The notes under the pieces are model-generated. The model was not told where the DNA came from. It saw only the letters and a program-made list of their open reading frames with translations, and did not search any database. 32,172 bases of DNA, from positions 1-32,172 of IMG/VR virus record IMGVR_UViG_3300012964_000039; one strand, written 5' to 3'. Source of the stretch: a virus. Shown piece after piece: positions 1,840-30,357 of this stretch; position 1 is the stretch's first letter, and the number at the start of each line of letters is the position of its first letter. The translations under genes and the position numbers were made by a program.

Positions 1840-1986
1840 ATGAAGCTGTGTAGACGATGCGGGCATAGACACCCAAGCGCGTATTTCTGCGCCTTTGTAG
1901 CTGCGAATAAACGCGCAGAATTGCGCATGAAGCCATTTGACAGATTCATTCAGCAATGGCGGCGCAGTAGAGAAAGGAGTTCGTAA
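1840..1986 (+). CDS. 48-aa Cys/His micro-protein, possible zinc finger
   Basis: ATG at 1840 is preceded by TTGGAGGAG at 1827-1835, a strong ribosome binding site. The stop TAA at 1984-1986 overlaps the ATG of the next gene (TAATG), which indicates translational coupling. The product begins MKLCRRCGHRHPSAYFC. Its CxxC pair (Cys4, Cys7), His9, His11 and Cys17 could bind one zinc ion. The C-terminus is rich in Arg (WRRSRERSS). It is the first gene of the base-modification operon. The function is unknown; a small nucleic-acid or protein adaptor is possible. The main support is the strong ribosome binding site and the overlap with the next gene. Confidence 0.7.
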   Translation: MKLCRRCGHRHPSAYFCAFVAANKRAELRMKPFDRFIQQWRRSRERSS

Positions 1987-2855
1987 TGCTGAAGATATTC
2001 ATACCTAGCTGGCGACGCCCAGCTACAACCACAACGCCCGCCCTGCTCGATGCGTGCGGCATAGATTACAAATTGGTGATCCGCGAAACTGAATACGCGG
2101 AGTACCTCAAGAATTTCAACAAGAAGAAACTGTTGGTCATCGGCGCGGAAGACGGGCTCAACCTTGCGCGGGAATATACGCGCTCGCTGCTCAAGAAGAA
2201 TGAGTGGTGCCTGCACATGGACGACAACGTGCTGGGCTTTATCCAGTGCGAAAAGAAGTTCTACCACGCGCATGACGTGGTTCCGCTTGACGATGGCGAA
2301 GACATGGTGACCCGCGCCAAGTGGCAGCCCACCATGAACCACAAAGTATCGTTCAAGGAATTCTACGACCTCGTCGTATCTGACACCGTCTTCAAATGTG
2401 TGCAGCGCGGCGCGTATCTGGCCGGATTCAGCGCCCACGACAACCCAGCGTTCCGCTATCGTAAGTTCACGGATGTGGGCTACGTGTGCGGCAAGACGAT
2501 GCTGATGTGCAACCAAGGACTTCCGTGGGTACAGTCCTACGAGTCGTCAGGCGAGGACTACGCGCTCACCGCCGCGCACCTGTACGAGAACGGCAGGGTG
2601 CTCATCAACAAGTGGGGACATCCCATGCGGAAGCACTACATGGCGGGAGGGTGCGGCCCGTACGATGAACGGCTATCAGCCATGATGCGCGCACAGCAAG
2701 ACCTCTGCCTGCGCTACGGCGACCTCTTTGCAATCAAGAACGAAGGCAAGGAGGACAAGCGTCAAGGCGAGCTGCGACTGCGCTTCAACAGCTTGGAGCA
2801 GGTTGCCAAGTGGCGCGCAGACCTACCCCACGATCCGAATTGGAGGATGAAATGA
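1986..2855 (+). CDS. TAGT-like glycosyltransferase (predicted DNA-base glycosyltransferase)
   Basis: The 289-residue product begins MLKIFIPSWRRPATTTTPAL, which looks like the first strand and nucleotide-binding loop of a GT-A type glycosyltransferase. WCLHMDDN at about residues 74-81 is a DxD-like metal and sugar-nucleotide site. This pattern fits the TET/JBP-associated glycosyltransferase (TAGT) group described in phage base-modification clusters by Iyer and colleagues in 2013. The likely role is transfer of a sugar from a nucleotide sugar to a hydroxymethylated or further modified pyrimidine in phage DNA. It overlaps the micro-protein gene upstream (TAATG) and the radical SAM gene downstream (ATGA), so the genes are coupled. 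No TET/JBP oxygenase is visible, and a thymidylate-synthase homologue may supply the hydroxymethyl group instead. Assignment rests on motif recognition, not on alignment. Confidence 0.72.
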   Translation: MLKIFIPSWRRPATTTTPALLDACGIDYKLVIRETEYAEYLKNFNKKKLLVIGAEDGLNLAREYTRSLLKKNEWCLHMDDNVLGFIQCEKKFYHAHDVVPLDDGEDMVTRAKWQPTMNHKVSFKEFYDLVVSDTVFKCVQRGAYLAGFSAHDNPAFRYRKFTDVGYVCGKTMLMCNQGLPWVQSYESSGEDYALTAAHLYENGRVLINKWGHPMRKHYMAGGCGPYDERLSAMMRAQQDLCLRYGDLFAIKNEGKEDKRQGELRLRFNSLEQVAKWRADLPHDPNWRMK

Positions 2856-3676
2856 CAAGGCTGTTCAACACAATCAGCATAGAAATCGCCAGCTTGTGCA
2901 ACCGAAAGTGCGACTGGTGCCCTGTTGCGTACAACGACCGCCCTGACGAACGCATGGAGGGTGCGGTACTGGAGCGCATACTCGCGGATCTCAAGGCGCT
3001 GAACTACAACGGTCGCGTGGAGTTGTATCTGTACAATGAACCGACTCGCGAGCTGACGTACCTGATCAACGTGATCACGCGAGTTCGGTACATGCTGCCG
3101 CGCGCCTGCATCATGATTGCCACGAACGGAGACTACTTGCGCGGCGTAGGGAACATTCTTCAGCTCTATGCGGCGGGGCTTAATCAGCTACTCATCAACT
3201 GCTACACCAAGGGACTGATGGAACGGCGTAAGAAGTGGGTTGAAGGCTTACCGGACGGCATTACGCAGGACGCCGGTGTGTACGCCAATACAGGGCCGCA
3301 CAAGCGCATCGTGGATATCATGGACAAGAGCAACCCCGCCAGCTTTGGGAAGGGTGTGTTCTCACTAGTGAACCGAGCAGGTAATATCCCGAACTTCAAA
3401 CCGGCGCTGAAGAAGCCCGTAGAACGTATGTGCGTCAAGCCGTTCCGCATTCTCAACATCAACTGGCGCGGCGATGCGCTGATCTGTTGTCAGGACTATC
3501 ACGGCAAGGTGAATATCGGAAACGTATTGTCGCTCGGCGTGGAAGGTTTGTGGAACCATGCAGTATTCAAAGAGTACCGCCACAAGCTGTACGCCAAGAA
3601 TCGCAGCCTACCGCTCTGTCGCGAATGTGATTGCCATGCGGGGGCGTACCCGCACAACGTACCTGTTCCGGACTAG
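2852..3676 (+). CDS. radical SAM enzyme with C-terminal SPASM/twitch-like cysteines
   Basis: The start is ATG at 2852, overlapping the previous stop as ATGA and following GGAGGA. The 274-residue product has the canonical CxxxCxxC cluster motif at Cys16, Cys20 and Cys23 (CNRKCDWC), which binds the 4Fe-4S cluster and S-adenosylmethionine. The C-terminal part carries MCVKPFRILNINWRGDALIC, a further Cys and CRECDC, the pattern of a SPASM or twitch auxiliary cluster. Radical SAM enzymes act in some thymidine hypermodification pathways, where one rearranges an amino-acid adduct on the base. The neighbouring hypermodification gene suggests a similar job here. The substrate is unknown; peptide or sugar modification is the main alternative. 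Confidence 0.9.
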   Translation: MTRLFNTISIEIASLCNRKCDWCPVAYNDRPDERMEGAVLERILADLKALNYNGRVELYLYNEPTRELTYLINVITRVRYMLPRACIMIATNGDYLRGVGNILQLYAAGLNQLLINCYTKGLMERRKKWVEGLPDGITQDAGVYANTGPHKRIVDIMDKSNPASFGKGVFSLVNRAGNIPNFKPALKKPVERMCVKPFRILNINWRGDALICCQDYHGKVNIGNVLSLGVEGLWNHAVFKEYRHKLYAKNRSLPLCRECDCHAGAYPHNVPVPD

Positions 3677-3684
3677 GAGATACT

Positions 3685-4551
3685 ATGAACAAAGAAAACT
3701 TCAAGAAGATGCTGTACTGGATGGAAGAACGGCAGCGAATTTATCTGCGAAAAGAAGCGGGAGAACCAAAGCCATGGACAAAAGACCCCATCCTCCGCGA
3801 TAACAAGTTCTGCAATGTTTACAGGGAGCAGGACAAGACTACTGTCTGGATCAAGGAAAACTGGCGCGATCCATATGCAGATCACGAAGATCTATGGTTT
3901 GCGATGCTGGTAGCGCGGCTGATCAACAAGCCGGACTCGTTGCAAGAGCTGGGTGTGCCGCTGCCGTGGAGCGCCAAGCGGTTCACGCAGGTGATACACA
4001 AGCGCACGCAGCGCGGAGACACGGTGTTCAGCGGTGCGTACATAGTCAGCACGAACGGCATCGCAATGGATAAGGTGGACTACCTTGCGGAGCGGGTACT
4101 GACGCCTATCTGGAATGCGCGTAAGCAGGTTCGCCCAGTGGCTGTGGACACACTGGACGCCTTCCACAAGCGCCTCATTCAATTCAACGGAGTAGGGTCG
4201 TTCATCGGCGCGCAGGTCGTGGCGGATATGAAGTACACGCCGATACTGTGCAACGCCGATGACTGGTACGCATTCGCTGCCAGCGGGCCGGGAAGCCGCC
4301 GTGGACTGAATCGTGTACTGGGCAGACCGCCCGCTGCTGCGTGGTCTGAAGAGGGCTGGCGGAACGCACTGCGCGAACTGTGGGTGGCGCTCGGCGATGA
4401 CAAGCGATACGCCAAGCTGCGCGCAGAAGGTGTATTTCCGCAGCCTGTTCACTGCCAAGATCTGCAGAATGTATGTTGTGAATTCGACAAGATGATGCGG
4501 ATCAGTAACGGTGAGGGGCGTATGAAGGCAACTTACAAAGGAGGCGCGTGA
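3685..4551 (+). CDS. DNA base hypermodification protein (HMUDK-helical / aGPT-PPlase type)
   Basis: ATG at 3685 follows AGGAG. The 288-residue helical protein has WTKDPIL (31-37), KFCNVYRE (41-48), NGVGSFIGAQVVADM (168-182), SGPGSRRGLNRVLGR (200-214) and HCQDLQNVCCEFDK (256-269). I recognise this set from phage proteins annotated as base-hypermodification factors. These are related to the helical domain of 5-hydroxymethyl-dU DNA kinases and to alpha-glutamyl/putrescinyl-thymine pyrophosphorylases. The NGVGSFIG segment looks like a helix-hairpin-helix of the DNA glycosylase type. There is no P-loop, so it is not itself the kinase. Its likely role is to attach or exchange a group on a phosphorylated hydroxymethyl-pyrimidine in DNA. 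Which clade it belongs to cannot be settled by eye. It is coupled to the next gene by TGATG. Confidence 0.78.
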   Translation: MNKENFKKMLYWMEERQRIYLRKEAGEPKPWTKDPILRDNKFCNVYREQDKTTVWIKENWRDPYADHEDLWFAMLVARLINKPDSLQELGVPLPWSAKRFTQVIHKRTQRGDTVFSGAYIVSTNGIAMDKVDYLAERVLTPIWNARKQVRPVAVDTLDAFHKRLIQFNGVGSFIGAQVVADMKYTPILCNADDWYAFAASGPGSRRGLNRVLGRPPAAAWSEEGWRNALRELWVALGDDKRYAKLRAEGVFPQPVHCQDLQNVCCEFDKMMRISNGEGRMKATYKGGA

Positions 4552-5570
4552 TGGTACGAACAATCACAGTAAACAATGTCAATGAGGCGTTGAGCGAGGC
4601 GCTCTGGCACCTCAAGACGGAGGGCGTGGTCACGGACTCACGGAACGGCGCGGTACTGGCTGCGCCGGACCCCGTGATCACAACGTACACGCAGCCCACG
4701 CAGCGAGTGATGCTGTCTGCGCTGCGCGATGCAAACCCGTTCTTCCACCACATGGAGGCGATATGGATGCTGGCCGGTGCGAACGACGTGGCATTCCCCA
4801 GCACGTACGCCAAGCAGATCGCGGCATATAGCGACGATGGCGAAACGCTGAATGGCGCGTATGGTCATCGCTGGCGGACGCATTTCGGCGGTGATCAACT
4901 GGTGTGGCTGATCAACCTGCTACGTAGTGATCCACACACGCGGCGCGCAGTGCTTGGCATGTGGGACGCCAGCAGCGACCTCGCCAAGACACAAAGTAGC
5001 AAGGATGTTCCCTGCAATACGCACGCCTACTTCAGCACGACGCGCGGAGCACTTGATATGACGGTGTGCTGTCGCAGTAACGACGCCGTCTGGGGCGCGT
5101 ATGGCGCGAACGCGGTTCACTTTTCTATGCTATTGCAGTTCATCGCGGAGGCCGCTGGGCTGCCTGTGGGTCACTATCATCAACTGAGCAATAATCTGCA
5201 CATCTACCTTGACCGACCAGACGTTGACCGGTTGATCTTCCGCAGCACCGACAGGATTGATGTGAAGTACCAGCCAGACACGCGATATCAATACTGGTAC
5301 ATGCAGGCCATCAAGCCGCTGATACTTCCCGCTGAACACTATACGGAATTCCTGCGCGATGCCGAGGAGTTCGTCAGCGACCCAACCGGCGATACGCAGT
5401 TCCGCACATGCTACTTCAACGAAGTGGTCGCTCCTATGCAGGTCGCGCACATGGCGTATCGTGAGCGTGACTTTGAAGCCGCGCTGATAGCGTGCGTAGA
5501 CATCACGGACACTCCGTGGCAGACAGCGTGCAGCGAGTGGCTGGAGCGTAGGAGGAACAATGCAAAATAA
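4551..5570 (+). CDS. thymidylate synthase family protein, predicted dUMP hydroxymethylase
   Basis: The start is ATG at 4551, overlapping the previous TGA and preceded by AAAGGAGG; a GTG three bases upstream is less likely. The 339-residue product shows thymidylate-synthase landmarks: GAYGHRWR near 103-110, RRAVLGMWD (131-139), the catalytic Cys155 in VPCNTHAYF, CRSNDAVWGAYGAN (174-187) and LSNNLHIY (212-219). The PCN context and RSND motif resemble phage pyrimidine hydroxymethylases more than cellular ThyA. Asn187 aligns best with the Asn that reads uracil in ThyA, whereas T4 dCMP hydroxymethylase has Asp, so dUMP is the favoured substrate. The product would be 5-hydroxymethyl-dUMP. An ordinary phage ThyA remains possible. 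Confidence 0.82.
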   Translation: MVRTITVNNVNEALSEALWHLKTEGVVTDSRNGAVLAAPDPVITTYTQPTQRVMLSALRDANPFFHHMEAIWMLAGANDVAFPSTYAKQIAAYSDDGETLNGAYGHRWRTHFGGDQLVWLINLLRSDPHTRRAVLGMWDASSDLAKTQSSKDVPCNTHAYFSTTRGALDMTVCCRSNDAVWGAYGANAVHFSMLLQFIAEAAGLPVGHYHQLSNNLHIYLDRPDVDRLIFRSTDRIDVKYQPDTRYQYWYMQAIKPLILPAEHYTEFLRDAEEFVSDPTGDTQFRTCYFNEVVAPMQVAHMAYRERDFEAALIACVDITDTPWQTACSEWLERRRNNAK

Positions 5571-22115: not shown

Positions 22116-23858
22116 TTATTGAACCAGAATGGATGCGACGCTGATTTGCTGCACAGCGCCACCGTCCATGTACCACAGCGTGACTGGCGGTGTTCCGCGC
22201 GCCTGCCGAACCTGCGCAGAAGCTGTGCCGACTTTCAGATACCAGCCGCGAGTACTCAGCACGCGGTCTATTTGCAGACCTGCGGCAGTGTTCACCTGCG
22301 CGATCTGCGATGCGGACAGGGCCACGCCAGGAACGATAGAGCCGAACGTCAGAGCTTGGTTGATCGGATCTTGCACGGCAGCACTGATCAGCGAATTGCC
22401 TGCGTCATTGTATGGAATAGACCCCATGGAAGTCAGCAGTGTCATCAGCGCAAGCTGGATCTGACTGTTCAGATACACCTGATTGAGATACTCGTCGGCA
22501 AACAGATACTGTCCTGTGATGCTGCCAGGATTCAAGAACGTGAAGTCCTGATTGGCGGTAGCCCACTGCCCAACGAAGTTGAACCCGTTGGTGCGCAGAT
22601 TGCTCGCGCTGGTCTGCGACGTCACGCTGACAGGAACTCCGCTGGTGTACTTGAAGTCCATCGTGATTCGCCCGCCTGCGCGGTTGAAGTCAATGGACGC
22701 CGCGATACCGAGTACCATCGCTGCTGCGTAGCCGGTGGGGTCCAGCAGCGAATCGCAATACACAGGGATCACGCCACCGTAGTTCGCAGCAATGATTCCA
22801 GCGATGGCTGTAGTGGTGTCCGGTGCTGTGATTGCTGCGACATTCGTGTCCCAGCATACATATGCGAAGCGATTGTTCTGCTGGCTTTCCCACTGGGCGA
22901 ACGCGAGAGCTTCTGCATTAGATGCTTCCCACAGCGTGCTGAACGCACCCCAGTTCAAGGTCAGCGCGGTGATTCCCGGCATGAACGTGGTCGGCGATGC
23001 AGCCGCCGCACCTTGCGAAAGCGTCGCACCTGTGGCCGTGGTCAGCTTCAGCGAGGTGGAGAATGCACCCAGCGGACCTGTCGCGGTGACTGCCGCACTG
23101 GTCATATCTGCCGGTGTCGCTGCTGCGCTGATGGTGTAAGTGCCTGCGCCGCCTGCGGTGCCTGTCAATTGATTGACGATCGTAGCGTTCAGCGTATGCG
23201 TGCCGTCGGTGCCGGTAACGGTGTCACCGACGTGGAATGTGCCTGCGACAGTACCGCCCACAGTCAGCACTGTGCCGAGCGTCGTACATGCTGAAGCGGT
23301 CGCCGCCATGCTCTCGGCCTGCGCCAGAGTAGACGATGCGCCGGTAGCGGTATCGGTCACGACAAACGCGCTCGCAGTAGTGTCCCACGACACGGAGAAC
23401 GTCGGTGCCGTGAACGCAGCCTGTATCAGCGTAGCAGCATTGGAGAAGCTGGTCGCGCCGGACAGGTTGATGCTGGCGGACGTCTGGCGCACCCCGTCGG
23501 ACACGACGGTCAACGTCGCGGCGGTCAACGCTTGAAGCTGCGCGAGAGTCATGGTCGCGAGCGAACCGCCGCGCAGCCATGCTGCGACCGCCGCTTCCGG
23601 ATACTGCGCAAACATGAGCTGTCCTGGAATGATGGTGGCGTTGTCGCGCCCCGCGAAGTAGGTCAGTGCCCACTGGTACTCGTCAGAAGTCAGGCCAAAG
23701 AACGCGCCGACGTCCGCCGCGTTGGCGAACGTCTTTATAGAACCGATAGGCACGCGTGAGTTCTGCGTCAGCACGACGCCGTTCAGCGCGAGCGCGGTGC
23801 CTCCGGCGCTGATGACCGAAGGATTTACTTGGACAATATCACTTGCTGGGATGGTCAT
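22116..23858 (-). CDS. tail sheath protein, DUF3383 family, with inserted module
   Basis: ATG at 23858 follows AGGAGCAACC. The 580-residue product begins MTIPASDIVQVNPSVISAGG. It has AFFGLTSDEYQWALTYFAG and later sheath regions such as ADEYLNQVYLNSQIQLALMT near the C-terminus, typical of DUF3383 sheath proteins. Residues about 196-260 form an extra Gly/Thr-rich module with LTGTAGGAGTYTISAAA, also seen in the cement and tail-terminator proteins. The sheath contracts to drive the tube through the host envelope. The module is probably exposed on its surface. Confidence 0.88.
   Translation of the reverse strand: MTIPASDIVQVNPSVISAGGTALALNGVVLTQNSRVPIGSIKTFANAADVGAFFGLTSDEYQWALTYFAGRDNATIIPGQLMFAQYPEAAVAAWLRGGSLATMTLAQLQALTAATLTVVSDGVRQTSASINLSGATSFSNAATLIQAAFTAPTFSVSWDTTASAFVVTDTATGASSTLAQAESMAATASACTTLGTVLTVGGTVAGTFHVGDTVTGTDGTHTLNATIVNQLTGTAGGAGTYTISAAATPADMTSAAVTATGPLGAFSTSLKLTTATGATLSQGAAAASPTTFMPGITALTLNWGAFSTLWEASNAEALAFAQWESQQNNRFAYVCWDTNVAAITAPDTTTAIAGIIAANYGGVIPVYCDSLLDPTGYAAAMVLGIAASIDFNRAGGRITMDFKYTSGVPVSVTSQTSASNLRTNGFNFVGQWATANQDFTFLNPGSITGQYLFADEYLNQVYLNSQIQLALMTLLTSMGSIPYNDAGNSLISAAVQDPINQALTFGSIVPGVALSASQIAQVNTAAGLQIDRVLSTRGWYLKVGTASAQVRQARGTPPVTLWYMDGGAVQQISVASILVQ
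23079..23273 (-). repeat. inserted Gly/Thr beta-type module in the sheath (one copy)
   Basis: The segment codes for about 65 residues with the signature NQLTGTAGGAGTYTISAAA, preceded by a GDTVTGT turn. It matches modules in the genes at 23888 and 29173 at the protein level. The boundaries are approximate and were set by comparing the three proteins by eye. Confidence 0.65.
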
Positions 23859-23887
23859 GGTTGCTCCTTGTTAAATTGCGACGGTGA

Positions 23888-24616
23888 TCATGCTGGGTAT
23901 GTTCGTTCTGTGTTCACGAGCGTGGCGCTCAATGATCCTGCGTACTGTTGCTGCACGGCGACCACCGGGTTCGCTTGCAGCGCAACGCTCACGACCCATC
24001 GTTCTTCGTACTGCTGTTCGCCATTGATGAACGGTATCTGCTTGGGGTCATTCACATAGAGCGGCTGCATGTCGAAGCCCTCTGCGGCGAAGAACTCCGT
24101 GGCATAACTGTCACGGAACAGCGTAGCGATCGCCTGCGCGTTCTCTGCAGAGGTCGGACCGTGTATGTCAAGCTGGATGTCTATTTGCGTGCGCTGCAAC
24201 GTGCCACGATAACCCGCTTGCATGATCGTGCTGGTGGCAGTCTGCGTCGGTGTGACGTTGTAAGTTCCCGCACCGCCCGTCGTGCCGCTGATCTGCGTGC
24301 CGATAACTGTGCCTGTCGCCACACCCTGCCCGCTGATCGTCAAGCCTTGTACGATGGTGCCGCGAATCATTGACGACACAGTTAGCACAAGCCCGCTGAT
24401 GCTGCCGTTGAACGCGATATCCGTGTACGCGCTCTCATTGGTGGCAAGCCGCGGACGCAACAGCGGCCACATTACGATGTGGTCGGTGTTTGACGGTTGT
24501 GACACGCGGTTCACCTGTCCCCGGATCACCTTGCAGTTCGCAACTACGAGACTCGTGACGAAGTCGCCCAGCACCTTGAAGACGTTCGCTTCAGTGATGG
24601 ACACTGTCGTGGTCAC
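23888..24616 (-). CDS. tail terminator-type protein (LIC_12616 family) with inserted module
   Basis: The start chosen is GTG at 24616, overlapping the previous stop (GTGA), giving 242 residues beginning [24 protein letters not shown] at 24634 is a weaker alternative. [14 protein letters not shown] and the C-terminal half with [20 protein letters not shown] and [15 protein letters not shown] are typical of LIC_12616-like proteins found before the sheath gene, probable tail terminators. About residues 70-134 are an inserted module with the signature [20 protein letters not shown]. The insertion is probably exposed at the neck. Confidence 0.75.
24215..24409 (-). repeat. inserted Gly/Thr beta-type module in the tail terminator (one copy)
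   Basis: This stretch codes for about 65 residues including [20 protein letters not shown] followed by AGTYNV. The pattern G.GV..GT.I..Q..GT.GG.GTY.V is shared with the sheath and cement proteins. The boundaries are approximate. Confidence 0.65.
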
Positions 24617-25134
24617 AGCACACGTCCCGGCCACTCGCAGCCAGCGGGCGAGCTGATGCCTGCGTCGCAGATTGCATCACCGTTATCGAGATTGCGGCCT
24701 TTGTAGAGCGGAGCGCCTGAGGACGCTTGGGTGACTGCGGAGGGTTGCTCGTCTTTTGAATACTCAGACATCGCGGCCTTGTGCTCTTCGGACCCTGGAG
24801 AGATTCCCAGCTTTCCCAGATGGTCACCGAGCGCCTTCGCGCTCCAACCCTCACGCCGCGCCACACCCGCTTCTTTCACGGCTTTCATGTGCTTTGGCGT
24901 TGTGTACGGGCCTTCGTGTTCTGCACTGCTAGCAGAGCTGCCCGACCCCCCACCGCTCCCCGATGTGAACTGCCCGCTGTGAGGATCGTGTGCTACTGCG
25001 TCCTTCGCGGGCTTCGGTACGCCAGCCTCGCGCATAGCGATCGCGACAGCCTGCTTCTGGGGTCTCCCTGCACGCATCTCGGTTGCTATGTTCTTGCTGA
25101 CAGCTTCCTTGCTTGATCCCTTTTCTAACGGCAT
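24613..25134 (-). CDS. phage protein with N-terminal Lys/Ala basic motif, 173 aa
   Basis: The start is ATG at 25134 after AAGGAGAGTGTC; a TTG at 25152 is not used. The product begins [20 protein letters not shown] and continues [18 protein letters not shown], a short basic domain common in small phage proteins of unknown function. A Ser/Gly-rich linker and a second helical part follow ([20 protein letters not shown]). It lies between the connector genes and the tail terminator. The C-terminus ([12 protein letters not shown]) overlaps the next gene. No role is known. Confidence 0.7.
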
Positions 25135-25144
25135 GACACTCTCC

Positions 25145-25375
25145 TTATTCAAGTTCAGTGGCGATGCTGACGTAGAGTTGCTTCAGTTGTTCCTTCGGGA
25201 TGCACACGCCAGCGGTTTCTTTCCCGCCACTTGTACGCACCGTCAACCAGTGTGAACCGTCCGCGCACTTGTTCAGAGCCGCGTATCCGGGAACGTGGTC
25301 GCCGTGCGCCTGTTCGGTGTATGCGAACACATTGCGCGGAGCTTCCGCCGATGCTTTCAATTTCTCTTTTGCCAT
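25145..25375 (-). CDS. hypothetical protein, 76 aa
   Basis: The start is ATG at 25375, with GGAGACTGAT upstream and a one-base gap after the previous stop. An ATG at 25396 in the same frame would overlap the previous gene. The product starts [20 protein letters not shown] and includes [20 protein letters not shown] and a C-terminal [16 protein letters not shown]. No family is recognised. It is part of the head-tail connector region. Confidence 0.65.
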
Positions 25376-25376
25376 A

Positions 25377-25787
25377 TCAGTCTCCACTTTGGACATTCTG
25401 GAGGGTGACCGCCACCTTCACCCATCCCGGTTCGTTAGGATTCCCTGCGTCGTGCAGCCACGCCTCAAGCACCATCGCTACCAGCCACACGTTTCCGTTC
25501 GGCATGGTGATCAGGTCGCCGCCCTTGTTGTCTTTTCGCACCAAGCCCTCAACATCACCAAGCAGGTAGATCGCACGCTTGGTGCCTTGAAGATTCAGCC
25601 CGTCCAATTGGCGTAGATCGCTGAACGTCAGTGACTGCACCTGACCCATGATTGTGATGGGCGCTGCGTATGCTGGCGCGGGCGAGTAGTCTGCATTCTG
25701 CGTGCTGCCGATGCTGATCTCTACGCTACACGCTACCATCGGATTGACTGCCGAGACGTACCCAGAAGCGATCCCATGCAGGTTCAT
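25377..25787 (-). CDS. phage head-tail region protein, 136 aa
   Basis: The start is ATG at 25787 after GGGTGACGCT; a longer frame upstream is excluded because it would overlap the preceding gene. The product starts MNLHGIASGYVSAVNPMVAC and includes QVQSLTFSDLRQLDGLNLQG and IYLLGDVEGLVRKDNKGGDL. Similar proteins occur between the neck protein and tail terminator in DUF3383-type phages. I cannot give an established function. It probably forms part of the connector. Confidence 0.68.
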   Translation of the reverse strand: MNLHGIASGYVSAVNPMVACSVEISIGSTQNADYSPAPAYAAPITIMGQVQSLTFSDLRQLDGLNLQGTKRAIYLLGDVEGLVRKDNKGGDLITMPNGNVWLVAMVLEAWLHDAGNPNEPGWVKVAVTLQNVQSGD

Positions 25788-25791
25788 AGCG

Positions 25792-26508
25792 TCACCCTTG
25801 TATGCTGACGGAGTTGATGTGGCCGGTATTGCTGCCCGCACTGGATGTTACAAGCATCACCAGTTTCATCATGATGTGCGCGCCAGGAGTCAGTCCTGTG
25901 CCGGTGACCGTGAACGTCAGGTCACTGCCTGCCGCGACGATCTGTTGCGCGGCGCTTACGGTGAGCGCGGTCTCCACGCCGTTGATCTCGGTGTACGCTG
26001 AGAGCGTCATGGTCGTAGACACTGCAGTCAGCGTACCAGCGCCCGCGACGCTCGCGTTAACGACCACAGGAATATTGCTTCCAGCGACGTAGGTGTCTGG
26101 CAAGTTCAGTTCGAACAGTGCGGTGTCAGTGACTGCGCTGGCAGACGTGGTCTCACCGGCGATATAGAGTGACGTCGCGTCGGTGCGAGAGATGGCGGGG
26201 ACGCCCGCGCCTGCGGTTGCCGTGACTGGAACGCCAGCCGCTGACTTCACGTCGGTGAGCATCATGTAACGCCGCACGCCAGCCGCGCCGACAGGAACGA
26301 ACGCGGTGGATGGGCTGCCGATGATCACGCCGTTGTTCATGGTGGCCGTGGTGTAGAGCGTTCCGCCAGGAACCGCGACTGTGGACACGATCTCCTGATT
26401 GCTGCCGTTCGGCGAACGCACGGCGTAGTCTGTCATCGGCTGCAGAATGGCGAATGCTGGAGCCGCGAACAGCATGGCGGTCATGATGCTGTACCAATAT
26501 TTCTTCAT
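25792..26508 (-). CDS. hypothetical protein with signal peptide in the neck region, 238 aa
   Basis: The start is ATG at 26508, preceded by AAGGAGAAACAAGAC; a longer frame reaching 26529 was rejected. The product begins MKKYWYSIMTAMLFAAPAFA, a textbook Sec signal peptide. It continues as a Thr/Ala/Val-rich beta-type protein with GTGLTPGAHIMMKLVMLVTS near the C-terminus, perhaps an Ig-like fold. Its place among head-tail genes suggests a surface decoration or neck fibre, but export of such a protein would be surprising. No homologue is recognised. Confidence 0.65.
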   Translation of the reverse strand: MKKYWYSIMTAMLFAAPAFAILQPMTDYAVRSPNGSNQEIVSTVAVPGGTLYTTATMNNGVIIGSPSTAFVPVGAAGVRRYMMLTDVKSAAGVPVTATAGAGVPAISRTDATSLYIAGETTSASAVTDTALFELNLPDTYVAGSNIPVVVNASVAGAGTLTAVSTTMTLSAYTEINGVETALTVSAAQQIVAAGSDLTFTVTGTGLTPGAHIMMKLVMLVTSSAGSNTGHINSVSIQG

Positions 26509-26525
26509 GTCTTGTTTCTCCTTGG

Positions 26526-26987
26526 TCAAGTTTCTTCAACGAATGAATCTACGCTCTTCCACATCAAGTCAGTATCGATCAGGGGCTTGTCGAACCCTTT
26601 CGCTGCGATTGTGCTCTCTGCCAGACCAGGAGTCGTGAAGTCTTGGATAGACTGCACTAGTTCTCCCTCGACCTCCTTACCCATGAGCGACAGCGATTTC
26701 ACGGCGTCATAATCCTCCAACTTGAGAATGTCTCCGAGGTCTTTTCCCCAGTGCGGGCTCTCCTTCGTGATCATGCCACGGAAGAATGGGCGCGGCGGCT
26801 GGTTGTGTGACGGCACGCCGAACTCGTTCGCGGCGGCGACAGCAGCGACAGGCGTGTGGTCCTTGTCCGGATAGGTGGCGTCAGACATAAACCCCACATT
26901 CAGCACAGCTGAGTTCTTCGCCTTAACAGCGAGCAACTTGAGCGCCTCCTCTAGCTTCTTCCCGCCCTGAAGTTTCATGCTCGCCAT
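26526..26987 (-). CDS. head-tail joining / neck protein (gp10/gpG-like), 153 aa
   Basis: ATG at 26987 follows GGGGTGACGCAG. The product begins MASMKLQGGKKLEEALKLLA and contains VAAANEFGVPSHNQPPRPFF followed by RGMI. The segment AAANEFG...PRPFFR is the hallmark of phage neck or tail-completion proteins of the HK97 gp10 / virion-morphogenesis type. The C-terminal part (ESTIAAKGFDKPLIDTDLMW) fits that family. It sits directly after the DUF4054 connector gene. Confidence 0.82.
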   Translation of the reverse strand: MASMKLQGGKKLEEALKLLAVKAKNSAVLNVGFMSDATYPDKDHTPVAAVAAANEFGVPSHNQPPRPFFRGMITKESPHWGKDLGDILKLEDYDAVKSLSLMGKEVEGELVQSIQDFTTPGLAESTIAAKGFDKPLIDTDLMWKSVDSFVEET

Positions 26988-26993
26988 ACTGCG

Positions 26994-27431
26994 TCACCCC
27001 GCCGTTGGGAACATGAGTGCAGCAGGATCCTGTATGCGAACCGGACCCTGCACGTAGCGGAACATGCGGAAGCGAAGTGTGGCCTGCCAGAATGCCGCGC
27101 CGTACTTGGTCTGCTGGAACCACTGCGCCGAGCCTGGAGGATAGTTCATCTCTGCGCTGACGTTCACGCTGCCCTCTGTGGCAGAGCTGATGCGCCCAAC
27201 CAACGGAGAACTCGGCGTTCCCAGCGGCGCGTTCAACGCGGCGATGTGCGCCACCAACATGTTCAGCAGCACGCTGCGCGTCGCCACATTTGTCACGGGA
27301 CTGGTGTCCGTGTTGTCGCAGTAGAGCTGCGCTTCCGCGAAGAAGCCCTGCGCCTGTGTCTGCGCCACGTAGGCTGCGAGCTCTGGATAGCGCGCGGACC
27401 ACGCTGCCCAGTCAAATGTGACGACGGCCAT
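26994..27431 (-). CDS. DUF4054 head-tail connector
   Basis: ATG at 27431 follows AAGGAGCGCAAC. The 145-residue product begins MAVVTFDWAAWSARYPELAA and has AEAQLYCDNTDTSPV and LNMLVAHIAALNAPL, the pattern of DUF4054 adaptor proteins. The family corresponds to the connector that sits on the portal in contractile phages. Its neighbours, the capsid gene on one side and the neck protein on the other, match the usual order. Confidence 0.85.
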   Translation of the reverse strand: MAVVTFDWAAWSARYPELAAYVAQTQAQGFFAEAQLYCDNTDTSPVTNVATRSVLLNMLVAHIAALNAPLGTPSSPLVGRISSATEGSVNVSAEMNYPPGSAQWFQQTKYGAAFWQATLRFRMFRYVQGPVRIQDPAALMFPTAG

Positions 27432-27481
27432 GTTGCGCTCCTTATAAAGTGCGACGAGCGCGAAGCCCGCCGCTATTACAG

Positions 27482-27910
27482 TCAGTCCATATCGTTACGA
27501 GTCTCAACGCCCTTGACGCCGGTGTTCTTCGGGTCGATGGGATCTAGACCGCTGCGCACTTCCTTCTCGCGTTCCTTGCCCATGTCAACTACCGAAGCGA
27601 GTTGCTTGTGGTGGAAGATCAGGCCGTTCTTGACGGCGGGGTGCTCTCTGTTGTTCTTCATCCACGCATCGAAGAACTCCTTCGGCACGCCCTCGGTGAC
27701 CGCGAACCCGCCGATCATGGAGATGCGCTGGATGGCGCCTGCCTGTAGCGAGTTGGTGCCTTTGAGGGTGACGCGCTCTGTCGGCATGCCGACCTGACGC
27801 ATGTCCATGTGGATGCCGTGCGGGAGCTTGCAGCCCACGGCGACGACTTCCTTGGTTGTCTTTGGTGCTACGGTGTGCGGTGCTGCGTTATGACGGTTGC
27901 CTGCGGCCAT
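27482..27910 (-). CDS. phage head-region protein, 142 aa
   Basis: The start is ATG at 27910 after GAGGAGTTTATC; an upstream ATG at 27934 is less supported. The product begins MAAGNRHNAAPHTVAPKTTK and contains GCKLPHGIHMDMRQVG, GVPKEFFDAWMKNNREHPAV and HHKQLASVVDM. Proteins of this type lie next to the major capsid gene in several myoviruses and may stabilise the head, but no role is proven. It is the first gene after the capsid terminator, so expression from read-through or a separate promoter is expected. Confidence 0.72.
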   Translation of the reverse strand: MAAGNRHNAAPHTVAPKTTKEVVAVGCKLPHGIHMDMRQVGMPTERVTLKGTNSLQAGAIQRISMIGGFAVTEGVPKEFFDAWMKNNREHPAVKNGLIFHHKQLASVVDMGKEREKEVRSGLDPIDPKNTGVKGVETRNDMD

Positions 27911-27959
27911 GATAAACTCCTCTGTCTGTGGCATTGCCGATATAGCGAAATGCTACTAC

Positions 27960-27992
27960 GGATAAAAAGACCGCCCCGATGTTCTGGGGCGG
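27960..27992 (-). terminator. strong rho-independent terminator after the capsid gene
   Basis: On the minus strand CCGCCCC (27986-27992) pairs with GGGGCGG (27971-27977) across an 8-base loop, followed directly by TCTTTTTATCC. This is a perfect 7-bp GC stem with a U-tract. It lies 21 bases downstream of the major capsid stop and should separate high-level capsid transcription from the genes beyond. Confidence 0.9.
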
Positions 27993-28013
27993 AAATGCTC
28001 TGGTGCTACCTGC

Positions 28014-29084
28014 TTACACTCCTACAAGTTGAGCGATTGCGAACGGCTGGCGAATAACTGCGCCCCACGATCCCTGCGATTTCTTCTGCAAGAAGCTGGA
28101 GGTCTTGCGAACGATGGCATGCGCGCGCATCTTTTCGGTGAATGCGCAGAAGCCGGTTTCCTGACCGTCGACTTCCGGAGCGATGAGCTGCACCAGATTG
28201 CCCGCGCCGGTCGGATTCGCGTACTGCACTGCTGTCTCGAAGCGGATCTTCGGGAAGTTCTTCTTCAGCATGTCGTACACGTTGGTCGCGAACGTTGCGT
28301 TGGTTGCAGTCAGCGCCACGGATGTGGACGGAGACATCGCCAGCACCAGCGGACTGTCCATCTCGATCAAGCCGCCGGACTGGTTCACCAGCTCCAGGAA
28401 CAGAGCCTGTACGTCGTTGTAGATTTCCTGCGACGTTGCGGTGACTTGGCCGTTGGTGATCCACGGACCGGAGGCGTTGCTGTTGAACGCCTTGGCTCCC
28501 GGAGCGATGGGCGCGGACAGATTCGGGTCATTCAACAGACCGTAGTTCTGCAGACCGGCCACGCCGAAGAAGTACGTCTGGTTCTGGAACTTGTCCAGCA
28601 CCATTGCCGACGCGATGTTCAGGCGAGCGGCGTAGTCGATCTTCGCGAGGCTGTAGGTCTCTAGCTGCTTCTCGCCCCACTGAGTGATCGTCTGGTAGTG
28701 ATACGCCTGACGTTGCGGGAAGTTAGCGTTCGCGCCGACAGATCCGTTCTCGCTGTAATCACCGTACGAAGATACTTCGCCGGTATTCTCGATCACGGGG
28801 AATGTCGCCGTGTGCGTGACCCAGTCACCTTTCTTCGCCTCGCCCAGGATCTGGGCTGCGCGGTTCGGAGTGACCAAGACCTTGATCAGGTCGGGGTCGA
28901 TGTAGTTGGCGAGATAGGCGGGGATGCCGCTGTTGCTGACTGTGACGAGAGCGGGCTGCGCGTCCATGGCGAGCAGAGAGCCGTTCGCATCACGCTTCAG
29001 CATCTGCGGGTTATCTGCGTACGGGAACACGATGCCGCGTTCTGCCGCGAGCAGGTCAAACATTGGATCCTGATTCAGTTTCAT
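28014..29084 (-). CDS. major capsid protein, DUF2184 family
   Basis: The start is ATG at 29084 following AAAGGATACAAA; a second ATG at 29099 is less likely. The 356-residue product starts MKLNQDPMFDLLAAERGIVF and includes TVSNSGIPAYLANYIDPDLI, GDWVTHTATFPVIENTGEVS and an N-arm/spine layout typical of DUF2184 capsid proteins (HK97 fold). Further on it has GVAGLQNYGLLNDPNLSAPI. It follows the cement gene and ends before a strong terminator. It forms the icosahedral shell. Confidence 0.9.
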   Translation of the reverse strand: MKLNQDPMFDLLAAERGIVFPYADNPQMLKRDANGSLLAMDAQPALVTVSNSGIPAYLANYIDPDLIKVLVTPNRAAQILGEAKKGDWVTHTATFPVIENTGEVSSYGDYSENGSVGANANFPQRQAYHYQTITQWGEKQLETYSLAKIDYAARLNIASAMVLDKFQNQTYFFGVAGLQNYGLLNDPNLSAPIAPGAKAFNSNASGPWITNGQVTATSQEIYNDVQALFLELVNQSGGLIEMDSPLVLAMSPSTSVALTATNATFATNVYDMLKKNFPKIRFETAVQYANPTGAGNLVQLIAPEVDGQETGFCAFTEKMRAHAIVRKTSSFLQKKSQGSWGAVIRQPFAIAQLVGV

Positions 29085-29110
29085 TTTGTATCCTTTCATG
29101 TGGTTTGGTT

Positions 29111-29145
29111 ACGGAGCCGCGTCGCAACCTACGAGGCGGTTCCGT
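29111..29145. promoter_or_regulatory. inverted repeat upstream of the capsid gene
   Basis: ACGGAGCCGC (29111-29120) and GCGGTTCCGT (29136-29145) form a 10-base stem with one mismatch or G-U pair and a 15-base loop. It sits in the gap between cement and capsid genes, about 25 bases upstream of the capsid start. It has no U-tract. A regulatory or RNA-processing role is possible; chance is not excluded. Confidence 0.35.
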
Positions 29146-29172
29146 GGTCATCAACTACCGAATGTTTCTGAA

Positions 29173-30357
29173 TCAGCCCAACGGGACAGTAGAGATCTTC
29201 ATCAACTCGCCAGGAGCAGCGACTGACATCGCATACCACTTGGTCAGCGTACCGGCAGCGACGGAGCCGCTGGTATCGCCGACGGCGGCTGCGTTGCTGA
29301 TCCAGTAAGCGCCGATGCCGCCAGGAGTACCGCTGACCTGCGCCAGAACGGTTCCGGTGTGCGCGCCCGTGGTCAGCGTGTCGCCGACGTTGATGGTGCC
29401 GGTGACTGCAGTCACGTTCATGTACGCGCCGTTACCGGACGCACCAGATGCGTCAGCGACGGTCTGCGCTACGCTCAGCGGGTACGTACCCGCGCCGCCT
29501 GTGCCGGATCCGCCAGTCAGCACAGTCGCTGCTGTGACGCCGCCGCCGGAGATCACCATGCCGACCAGGATCACGCCGTTGGTCATGGACGTGACGGTCA
29601 GCCAGCTGCCGGAGCCGGTGATCGTGGTGCCCGCCGTGACGGTCTGGAAGATATTCACGCGATAGGTGCCGGTGCCGCCTGGAGTTGCGCCGGTAAGTTG
29701 CTCAACGATCGCAGTGCCCGCCGCGACGTTGGTGCCGGTCAGCGTCTGTCCCGCGTACAGACCGCCGGTGGTCACTGCGGATACAGTCAGCGTGGTGCCG
29801 CTGATGCCGCCGACGACCACGTTCGGTGCGATAGCCGACACATTCAGGTCGTTAGCGACGACGGTGATCGTGGTCAACGTGGCGTCGGAAGGAACGGAGG
29901 TTCCCGGAACGACCTTGCCATTGGCATTGATCGCATAGATGGCCTCGTTCACGGTGGACGCGGTGGTGCCGTCGTTCACTGCCCAGAAGTCACCCGAGCT
30001 GTGCAGCACAACGGGCAGACCCTGCGGAATCAGTTGAGTCGCGGCCTCCAAGAACACGGTGATCAGTCCTTGCTGCTCGCGGTGAACGAAACCTGTGGGC
30101 GCGCCGGAACCGTTGCTGTTCACAGTCAGCATGCCGTCGATTTCGCCAGACGACTGGTTCATCAAAGTGCCCGGAACTGCCCATGCAAAGCGACCGACCA
30201 GCACGCCGCCGATGGAAGATGTCAAGCCCTGCGGAACGTTGTTACCCGCGACCAGTCCGCCAGGCCCGGCGAGAACAGTGGCGCGGGGATTTGCCGATGC
30301 GAAGTCGCCCGCGACCGCTGGTGCCGGTTGCAGATTTACCTGAGTTTGAAAGTTCAT
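29173..30357 (-). CDS. structural cement/decoration protein with three inserted modules
   Basis: ATG at 30357 follows AAGGAGTAGACA. The 394-residue product has an N-terminal part (about 1-155) typical of phage cement proteins: [57 protein letters not shown] shorter C-terminal part ([20 protein letters not shown]) closes the same fold. Between them, about residues 185-370, lie three tandem Gly/Thr-rich modules ending in G.GTY, absent from ordinary cement proteins. It stabilises the capsid, and the modules probably stick out from the surface. Confidence 0.82.
29248..29805 (-). repeat. three tandem Gly/Thr beta-type modules in the cement protein
   Basis: Three units of about 61 residues cover protein residues 185-248, 249-309 and 310-370. 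Their ends read [30 protein letters not shown] and [15 protein letters not shown]. The DNA copies are clearly diverged, so duplication is not recent. The same motif occurs once in the sheath and once in the tail terminator. Confidence 0.75.

Follow-up and report, generated by a model that had tools for sequence, protein, structure and literature searches.

The stretch of DNA analyzed here (hereafter, the window) is the whole of the 32172-base virus record IMGVR_UViG_3300012964_000039. It contains a myovirus structural cassette with genes for a head protease, a cement protein, the major capsid protein, neck proteins, a terminator, a sheath, a tube and a tape measure, and three of these genes, those for the sheath, the terminator and the cement protein, all on the minus strand, carry copies of a Gly/Thr-rich module of about 60 residues that is the subject of this study. 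The tail sheath protein (22116-23858, 580 residues, one module) matches Pfam DUF3383 (E = 1.6e-126) and the PHROG tail sheath family, and finds the E217 sheath (8env/8fvg) by sequence with an E-value of about 1e-20. The neck/tail terminator (23888-24634, 248 residues, one module) matches Pfam Phage_tail_terminator_9 (E = 1.4e-19), PHROG 1876 (E = 9e-43) and the NCBIfam neck terminator NF047498 (E = 7.6e-13). The cement, or minor capsid, protein (29173-30357, 394 residues, three tandem modules) is of the XM1 gp53/E217 gp24 beta-tulip type, as seen from its matches to Pfam XM1_gp53_minor_capsid PF23982 (E = 8e-18) and phrog_2122 (E = 9e-37) and from the structural model described below. Each host protein is of a standard family, as had been proposed in the initial annotation of this DNA. 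The module, however, does not belong to the folds of these proteins: it is a new, uncatalogued domain family in the already known role of spreading virion decoration domains.

The single sheath copy (23103-23276, 47.5 bits against the family profile) is inserted after about residue 195, where the alignment to the E217 sheath shows a gap, and the single terminator copy (24221-24403, 60.9 bits) is inserted after residue 75, the very point at which module-less orthologues join directly. In the cement protein, copy 1 (29626-29805, 63.9 bits), copy 2 (29449-29616, 53.2 bits) and copy 3 (29272-29439, 38.7 bits) follow one another, again on the minus strand. These are the five copies that the initial annotation had listed, with boundaries that agree within about ten residues. 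A six-frame search of the window with the family profile gave no further convincing copy, the next best match having an E-value of 0.07. When aligned, the five copies share the positions G-x10-G-x4-G and GT/GG-x-GTY, and profiles trained on any four of them recover the one left out with E-values of 4e-9 to 6e-14.

As the composition of the copies is strongly biased, such likeness might arise from shared Gly/Thr-rich low complexity rather than from common descent of a domain. For this reason we scored each host with profiles built solely from the copies in the other two host proteins, and set the true scores against those of 5000 shuffles per host with unchanged composition. The sheath, terminator and cement protein scored 61.2, 65.1 and 138.3 bits, respectively, with shuffle maxima of 32.9, 28.1 and 56.9 bits. 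Not one of the 5000 shuffles per host reached the true score and richness in Gly and Thr alone thus does not explain the likeness. The near-invariance of G17, G27, G42, G46, G49 and Y51 across 129 copies and the confident fold predicted for the module also speak against low complexity, an explanation to which we assign practically no probability and which the shuffles rule out.

That the module is an insert is seen when homologues in related loci gathered for comparison (denoted by L-numbers) are considered. Counted over non-redundant homologues, 29, 6, 37 and 24 cement proteins contain zero, one, two and three modules, respectively, so that the cement protein is the commonest carrier (67/96). 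The corresponding numbers for zero, one and two modules are 64, 15 and 2 for the terminator and 68, 13 and 15 for the sheath. Part of this collection was gathered with single module sequences as queries, a bias that is countered by the loci fetched with the module-free cement core alone, where 26 of 66 cement proteins have no module and the remaining 40 have one to three. Characterized relatives present the same picture. In the best hit, the 504-residue E217 sheath aligns with the window sheath as far as residue 195 and resumes at about residue 265, with the module in between; sheaths of isolated Aeromonas, Klebsiella, Pseudomonas and Xanthomonas phages, of about 488-493 residues as compared with 580, are matched without the insert, and the cement proteins of these phages match only the first 125-171 residues of the window cement protein. 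Short cement genes are found in Aeromonas phage 4_D05 (480 bp) and Acetobacter phage phiAO1 (504 bp).

The sites of insertion, read by cutting out the modules and then aligning the cores, also differ among relatives. The sheath has three such sites in the window numbering, namely after about residue 195 (the window, L002 and L003), after about residue 149 (L030, L033, L052, L102, L108, L126 and further loci, where one or two copies are present) and after about residue 58 (L034 and L035). In the terminator there are two such sites; most inserts follow residue 75, and L032 and L109 have both this site and another after about residue 32. In the cement protein, all copies precede the last conserved stretch, TKW..S..A.GEL.KIS, which directly follows the core in three orthologues without modules (L011, L129 and L132); in the window, this C-terminal stretch of the core (TKWYAMS..GELMKIS) lies at 29176-29250 on the minus strand. 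The sheath-core tree calls for at least 7 changes between presence and absence of the module, 5 of which are required by branches with good support, and the cement tree for at least 16 changes of copy number, although these counts should be taken as rough, as both trees come from quick searches and contain some long branches. The sheath of L223, the nearest to that of the window after L002 and L003, has no module. In 84 loci, a non-random sample, the sheath, terminator and cement protein were all readable; of these loci, all 28 with a module in the sheath or terminator have at least two in the cement protein, which suggests that the cement protein is the usual first carrier. The initial annotation had named two findings that would speak against a spreading module, namely homologues that always carry the segment at the same sites and models in which the segments belong to the core folds. 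Homologues were found to vary in both copy number and site, and the models, considered below, place the modules outside the core fold.

The module reaches far beyond these three proteins. Across the first 128 loci, three rounds of profile searching brought up 168 proteins that together contain 283 copies (1 to 8 each), and the carriers include cement/minor head proteins, tail sheaths, neck terminators, baseplate wedge proteins (Baseplate_J), the head closure protein Hc3, the SU10 adaptor, capsid proteins and tail fibres or spikes. Whole virus records typically hold 5-6 copies spread across several proteins. Among predicted viral structures, the same fold, with 31-55% identity, is found in uncultured phage proteins named HK97 capsid, P22 gp10, side tail fibre and attachment protein J, as well as in collagen-repeat proteins of the giant virus Indivirus. 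In a named phage, Sinorhizobium phage phi3LM21, the tail fibre protein (L131:2324-5008) contains one module that scores 69 bits. This phage was also the only record returned from a phage collection by tblastn with the terminator copy as query. The consensus gave no match in the same collection, a result that should not be read as absence from isolates, as the low-complexity filter was on and phi3LM21 was missed despite its profile score.

Modules were further seen on contigs assigned to cellular organisms. On a Methylovulum-assigned contig (L133:4027-6561), a module lies in the C-terminal part of a capsid/head maturation protease protein; within the class of that genome the module is rare (3 of 274 sampled genomes). 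A cyanobacterium-assigned contig (L141:1468-12186) has modules in a very large FG-GAP-repeat protein, and a Nitrosarchaeum-assigned contig (L144) has them in a large open frame. Because of these last two occurrences, the module may also have a role on the surface of cells, or in large viruses that infect such hosts.

Such patchy presence, at several sites and in many host proteins, would agree with the module being a neutral or selfish insert, tolerated in loops of phage proteins with no benefit to the phage. The ratio of nonsynonymous to synonymous substitution rates (dN/dS) was computed between the window and L002; as synonymous divergence is high (dS of 0.6-1.3), the ratios are approximate. 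The modules gave values of 0.10 (sheath), 0.15 (terminator) and 0.09 (cement), and their cores 0.11, 0.17 and 0.13, respectively. As the modules are no higher than the cores that host them, the copies are clearly maintained by purifying selection. Moreover, the nearest relative of a first cement copy is the first copy of another genome in 61 of 68 cases; each position in the cement protein thus keeps its own lineage, and the copies are old and kept. Recent duplication within a genome was looked for and not seen, and neither was any signal of mobility at the DNA level, only short nucleotide matches being found between copies. We therefore regard neutral or selfish spread as rather improbable.

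The structure of the module was predicted with AlphaFold2, using cement copy 1 together with 128 further copies. The model of the single module is an all-beta, compact barrel with a mean predicted local distance difference test (pLDDT) score of 96.5 and a predicted template modeling score of 0.84, and the module is accordingly predicted to fold independently. The closest solved fold, as found by Foldseek, belongs to a protein that decorates the capsid of Arthrobacter phage Bridgette (8eci chain 1), with a Z score of 5.9, a root-mean-square deviation of 1.4 over 55 residues and 26% identity. This is a separate protein of 124 residues, however, whereas the module is an insert, and its sequence was missed by the module profile in an hmmsearch of PDB sequences with E-values of up to 10. 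Furthermore, this Z score is within 1 of those of unrelated barrels, and values below 8 may reflect a common arrangement only. A domain of T5 pb9 (Dit), EF-Tu domain 2 and the N-terminal barrels of F1-ATPase have barrel folds like that of the module, with Z scores of 5-6.4, but with 8-16% identity and no shared function they represent a common arrangement only; EF-Tu and F1-ATPase were rejected as relatives on this basis (Z of at most 6.4). As barrels of the EF-Tu type score the same as the Bridgette protein, the modeled fold class should be considered tentative. For the role that the module fills, its fold is probably a new choice.

The whole cement protein was modeled with a pLDDT of 80.6. 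Compared with the cement proteins of Pa193, E217, Pam3, FCWL1, T1 and XM1, this model gave Z scores of 12.6-14.2, with alignments that start at model residues 3-9, end at 391-392, run across the modules and cover nearly the whole of each target. The core is therefore complete without the three barrels, and in the model it closes around the inserts. The solved beta-tulip cement proteins (E217/Pa193 gp24, Pam3, FCWL1, T1 and XM1 gp53) belong to the same sequence family and fold as the window cement core, but have only 150-211 residues, as compared with 394, and lack the three modules.

Where the modules would lie on the particle can be considered from homologous virions. Trimeric cement proteins sit on the outside of the capsid at three-fold positions in E217 (gp24; PMC10329688) and XM1 (gp53; PMC10457771). 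Additional sheath domains point away from the tail tube (PMC9230969), and the E217 sheath has an extra domain A that is lacking in pyocin (PMC10329688), to the counterpart of which the insert in the window sheath presumably belongs. The view of the initial annotation that all three proteins are exposed is accordingly sound for cement and likely for the sheath, the two proteins that homology with these particles covers.

The overall explanation that we find best, and hold to be fairly probable, is as follows. The module would be an autonomous beta-barrel domain of about 60-65 residues that is inserted, singly or in groups of up to three, into loops of phage virion proteins. Its copies would lie on the outside of the capsid, on the cement trimers, and on the tail, such that each virion would display very many neutral, hydroxyl-rich barrels. 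These barrels could then act as a multivalent surface coat which, through weak contacts with cell-surface or environmental polymers, would keep the particle near its host. This last step is the least certain, and weak adhesion as the function of the module is put forward tentatively, with somewhat less than even confidence. Binding of sugars or mucus-like polymers is one possible form of such adhesion, to which the composition of the module lends no special support.

Several observations weigh against this explanation and should be considered when referring to it. The adhesion step draws on analogy with Ig-like domains. Across the family of 129 copies, charged residues amount to 2.4% and Trp, His and Cys to about 0.1% each, which is unusual for a sugar-binding surface. 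The near-invariant residues, namely glycines, one threonine and one tyrosine, are likely structural, and no conserved polar or aromatic pocket was seen among these copies. Exposure, as argued from homologous particles, would cover the cement and sheath copies and not that of the terminator. Finally, no solved structure of the module was found by PDB sequence searches.

The same composition, with Thr, Ser, Gly, Ala and Val together at 73%, and a content of charged residues that is lower in the modules (2.7-4.5%) than in the cores that carry them (8-16%) would also suit a steric coat, in which neutral, hydroxyl-rich barrels guard against aggregation, unspecific sticking or antibodies, or else carry O-linked sugars. 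Low charge may, however, simply be the style of the module fold, and, as regards O-linked sugars, the analysis identified no glycosyltransferase acting on proteins, the TAGT-like enzyme in the window being grouped with DNA hypermodification genes; we consider a coat of this kind quite unlikely as the main function. Stabilization of the particle, in which barrels of neighboring cement trimers or sheath subunits touch and so lock shell and tail, agrees with cement being the commonest carrier and with the purifying selection on the modules. It also has precedents, in that XM1 gp53 strengthens the capsid at the junctions between capsomers (PMC10457771) and extra sheath domains were proposed to cement the tail (PMC9230969). 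Yet many orthologues do without the module, and several sites per protein, together with carriers as unlike as fibres, baseplate and capsid, offer no common partner surface. We thus judge stabilization unlikely. A function other than adhesion, stabilization, a steric coat or neutral spread is very unlikely.

Databases hold little on the module. Scans of the host proteins, the consensus and a single copy against Pfam gave no match to the module above the curated cut-offs and none to an Ig-type family, and NCBIfam gave no match. The best Pfam score was that of FeoA (E = 0.12, 12.9 bits versus a cut-off of 23), which, like YebT (E = 1.5-1.7), was set aside as noise. PHROG matches were limited to two families, phrog_21413, of unknown function (E = 3.6e-15, consensus positions 404-463), and phrog_38233, tail fibre (E = 8.4e-13, positions 561-620). 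Both are whole-protein families that contain the module, which is not delimited there as a family of its own. A literature search on the letters of the motif found no paper that prints it.

Two further features of the window were noted. A 245-residue protein within the neck/tail cassette (25795-26529, minus strand) has an N-terminus resembling a signal peptide (MKKYWYSIMTAMLFAAPAFA) and matched no family in the Pfam and PHROG scans; this signal-like start is kept in L002, L071, L073 and L074, and homologues in L110 and L160 are without it. On the plus strand, a DNA hypermodification cluster (1986-5570) encodes a TET-associated glycosyltransferase, a SPASM/radical SAM protein, a 5-hydroxymethyldeoxyuridine DNA kinase helical domain and a thymidylate synthase homologue.

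The decoration domains known to spread are, for the most part, Ig-like. We give about even credence to the broader proposal that an undescribed, non-Ig family, in parallel to and independently of Ig-like domains, makes its way by insertion into many structural proteins of environmental phages, covers the capsid, neck and tail of a single particle simultaneously, and reaches collagen-like proteins of giant viruses and very large bacterial surface proteins. A second decoration family, of other sequence and apparently other fold, present in head, neck and tail of the same virions and under purifying selection, would make coating of the whole particle a general strategy of phages. The module also accounts for numerous inserts left without annotation in phage proteins from metagenomes, and is ready for addition to Pfam. 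The natural series of 0 to 6 copies per virus could serve for testing what such coats do, with the tail fibre module of phi3LM21 as a convenient laboratory case.

Ig-like domains of phages occur patchily in many virion protein families, are seen as spreading between phages and have been proposed to mediate weak adhesion (PMC9230969); T4 Hoc, for example, has three of them (PMC10385173). Like these domains, the module is small and all-beta, occurs singly or in repeats, and is patchy across several virion protein families. The notion of a spreading decoration domain, Ig-like in concept but with a different motif, is thus well supported by the varying copy number and site, the many unrelated virion families and the predicted independent fold. 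As to the fold itself, the nearest PDB folds listed for the module are barrels, with Z scores of at most 6.4, rather than Ig sandwiches; Ig-type entries were absent from the fold lists, although such absence in itself proves nothing. Hoc is acidic (PMC10385173), whereas the module is nearly uncharged, and, unlike Ig-like domains, the module is inserted between strands of the core.

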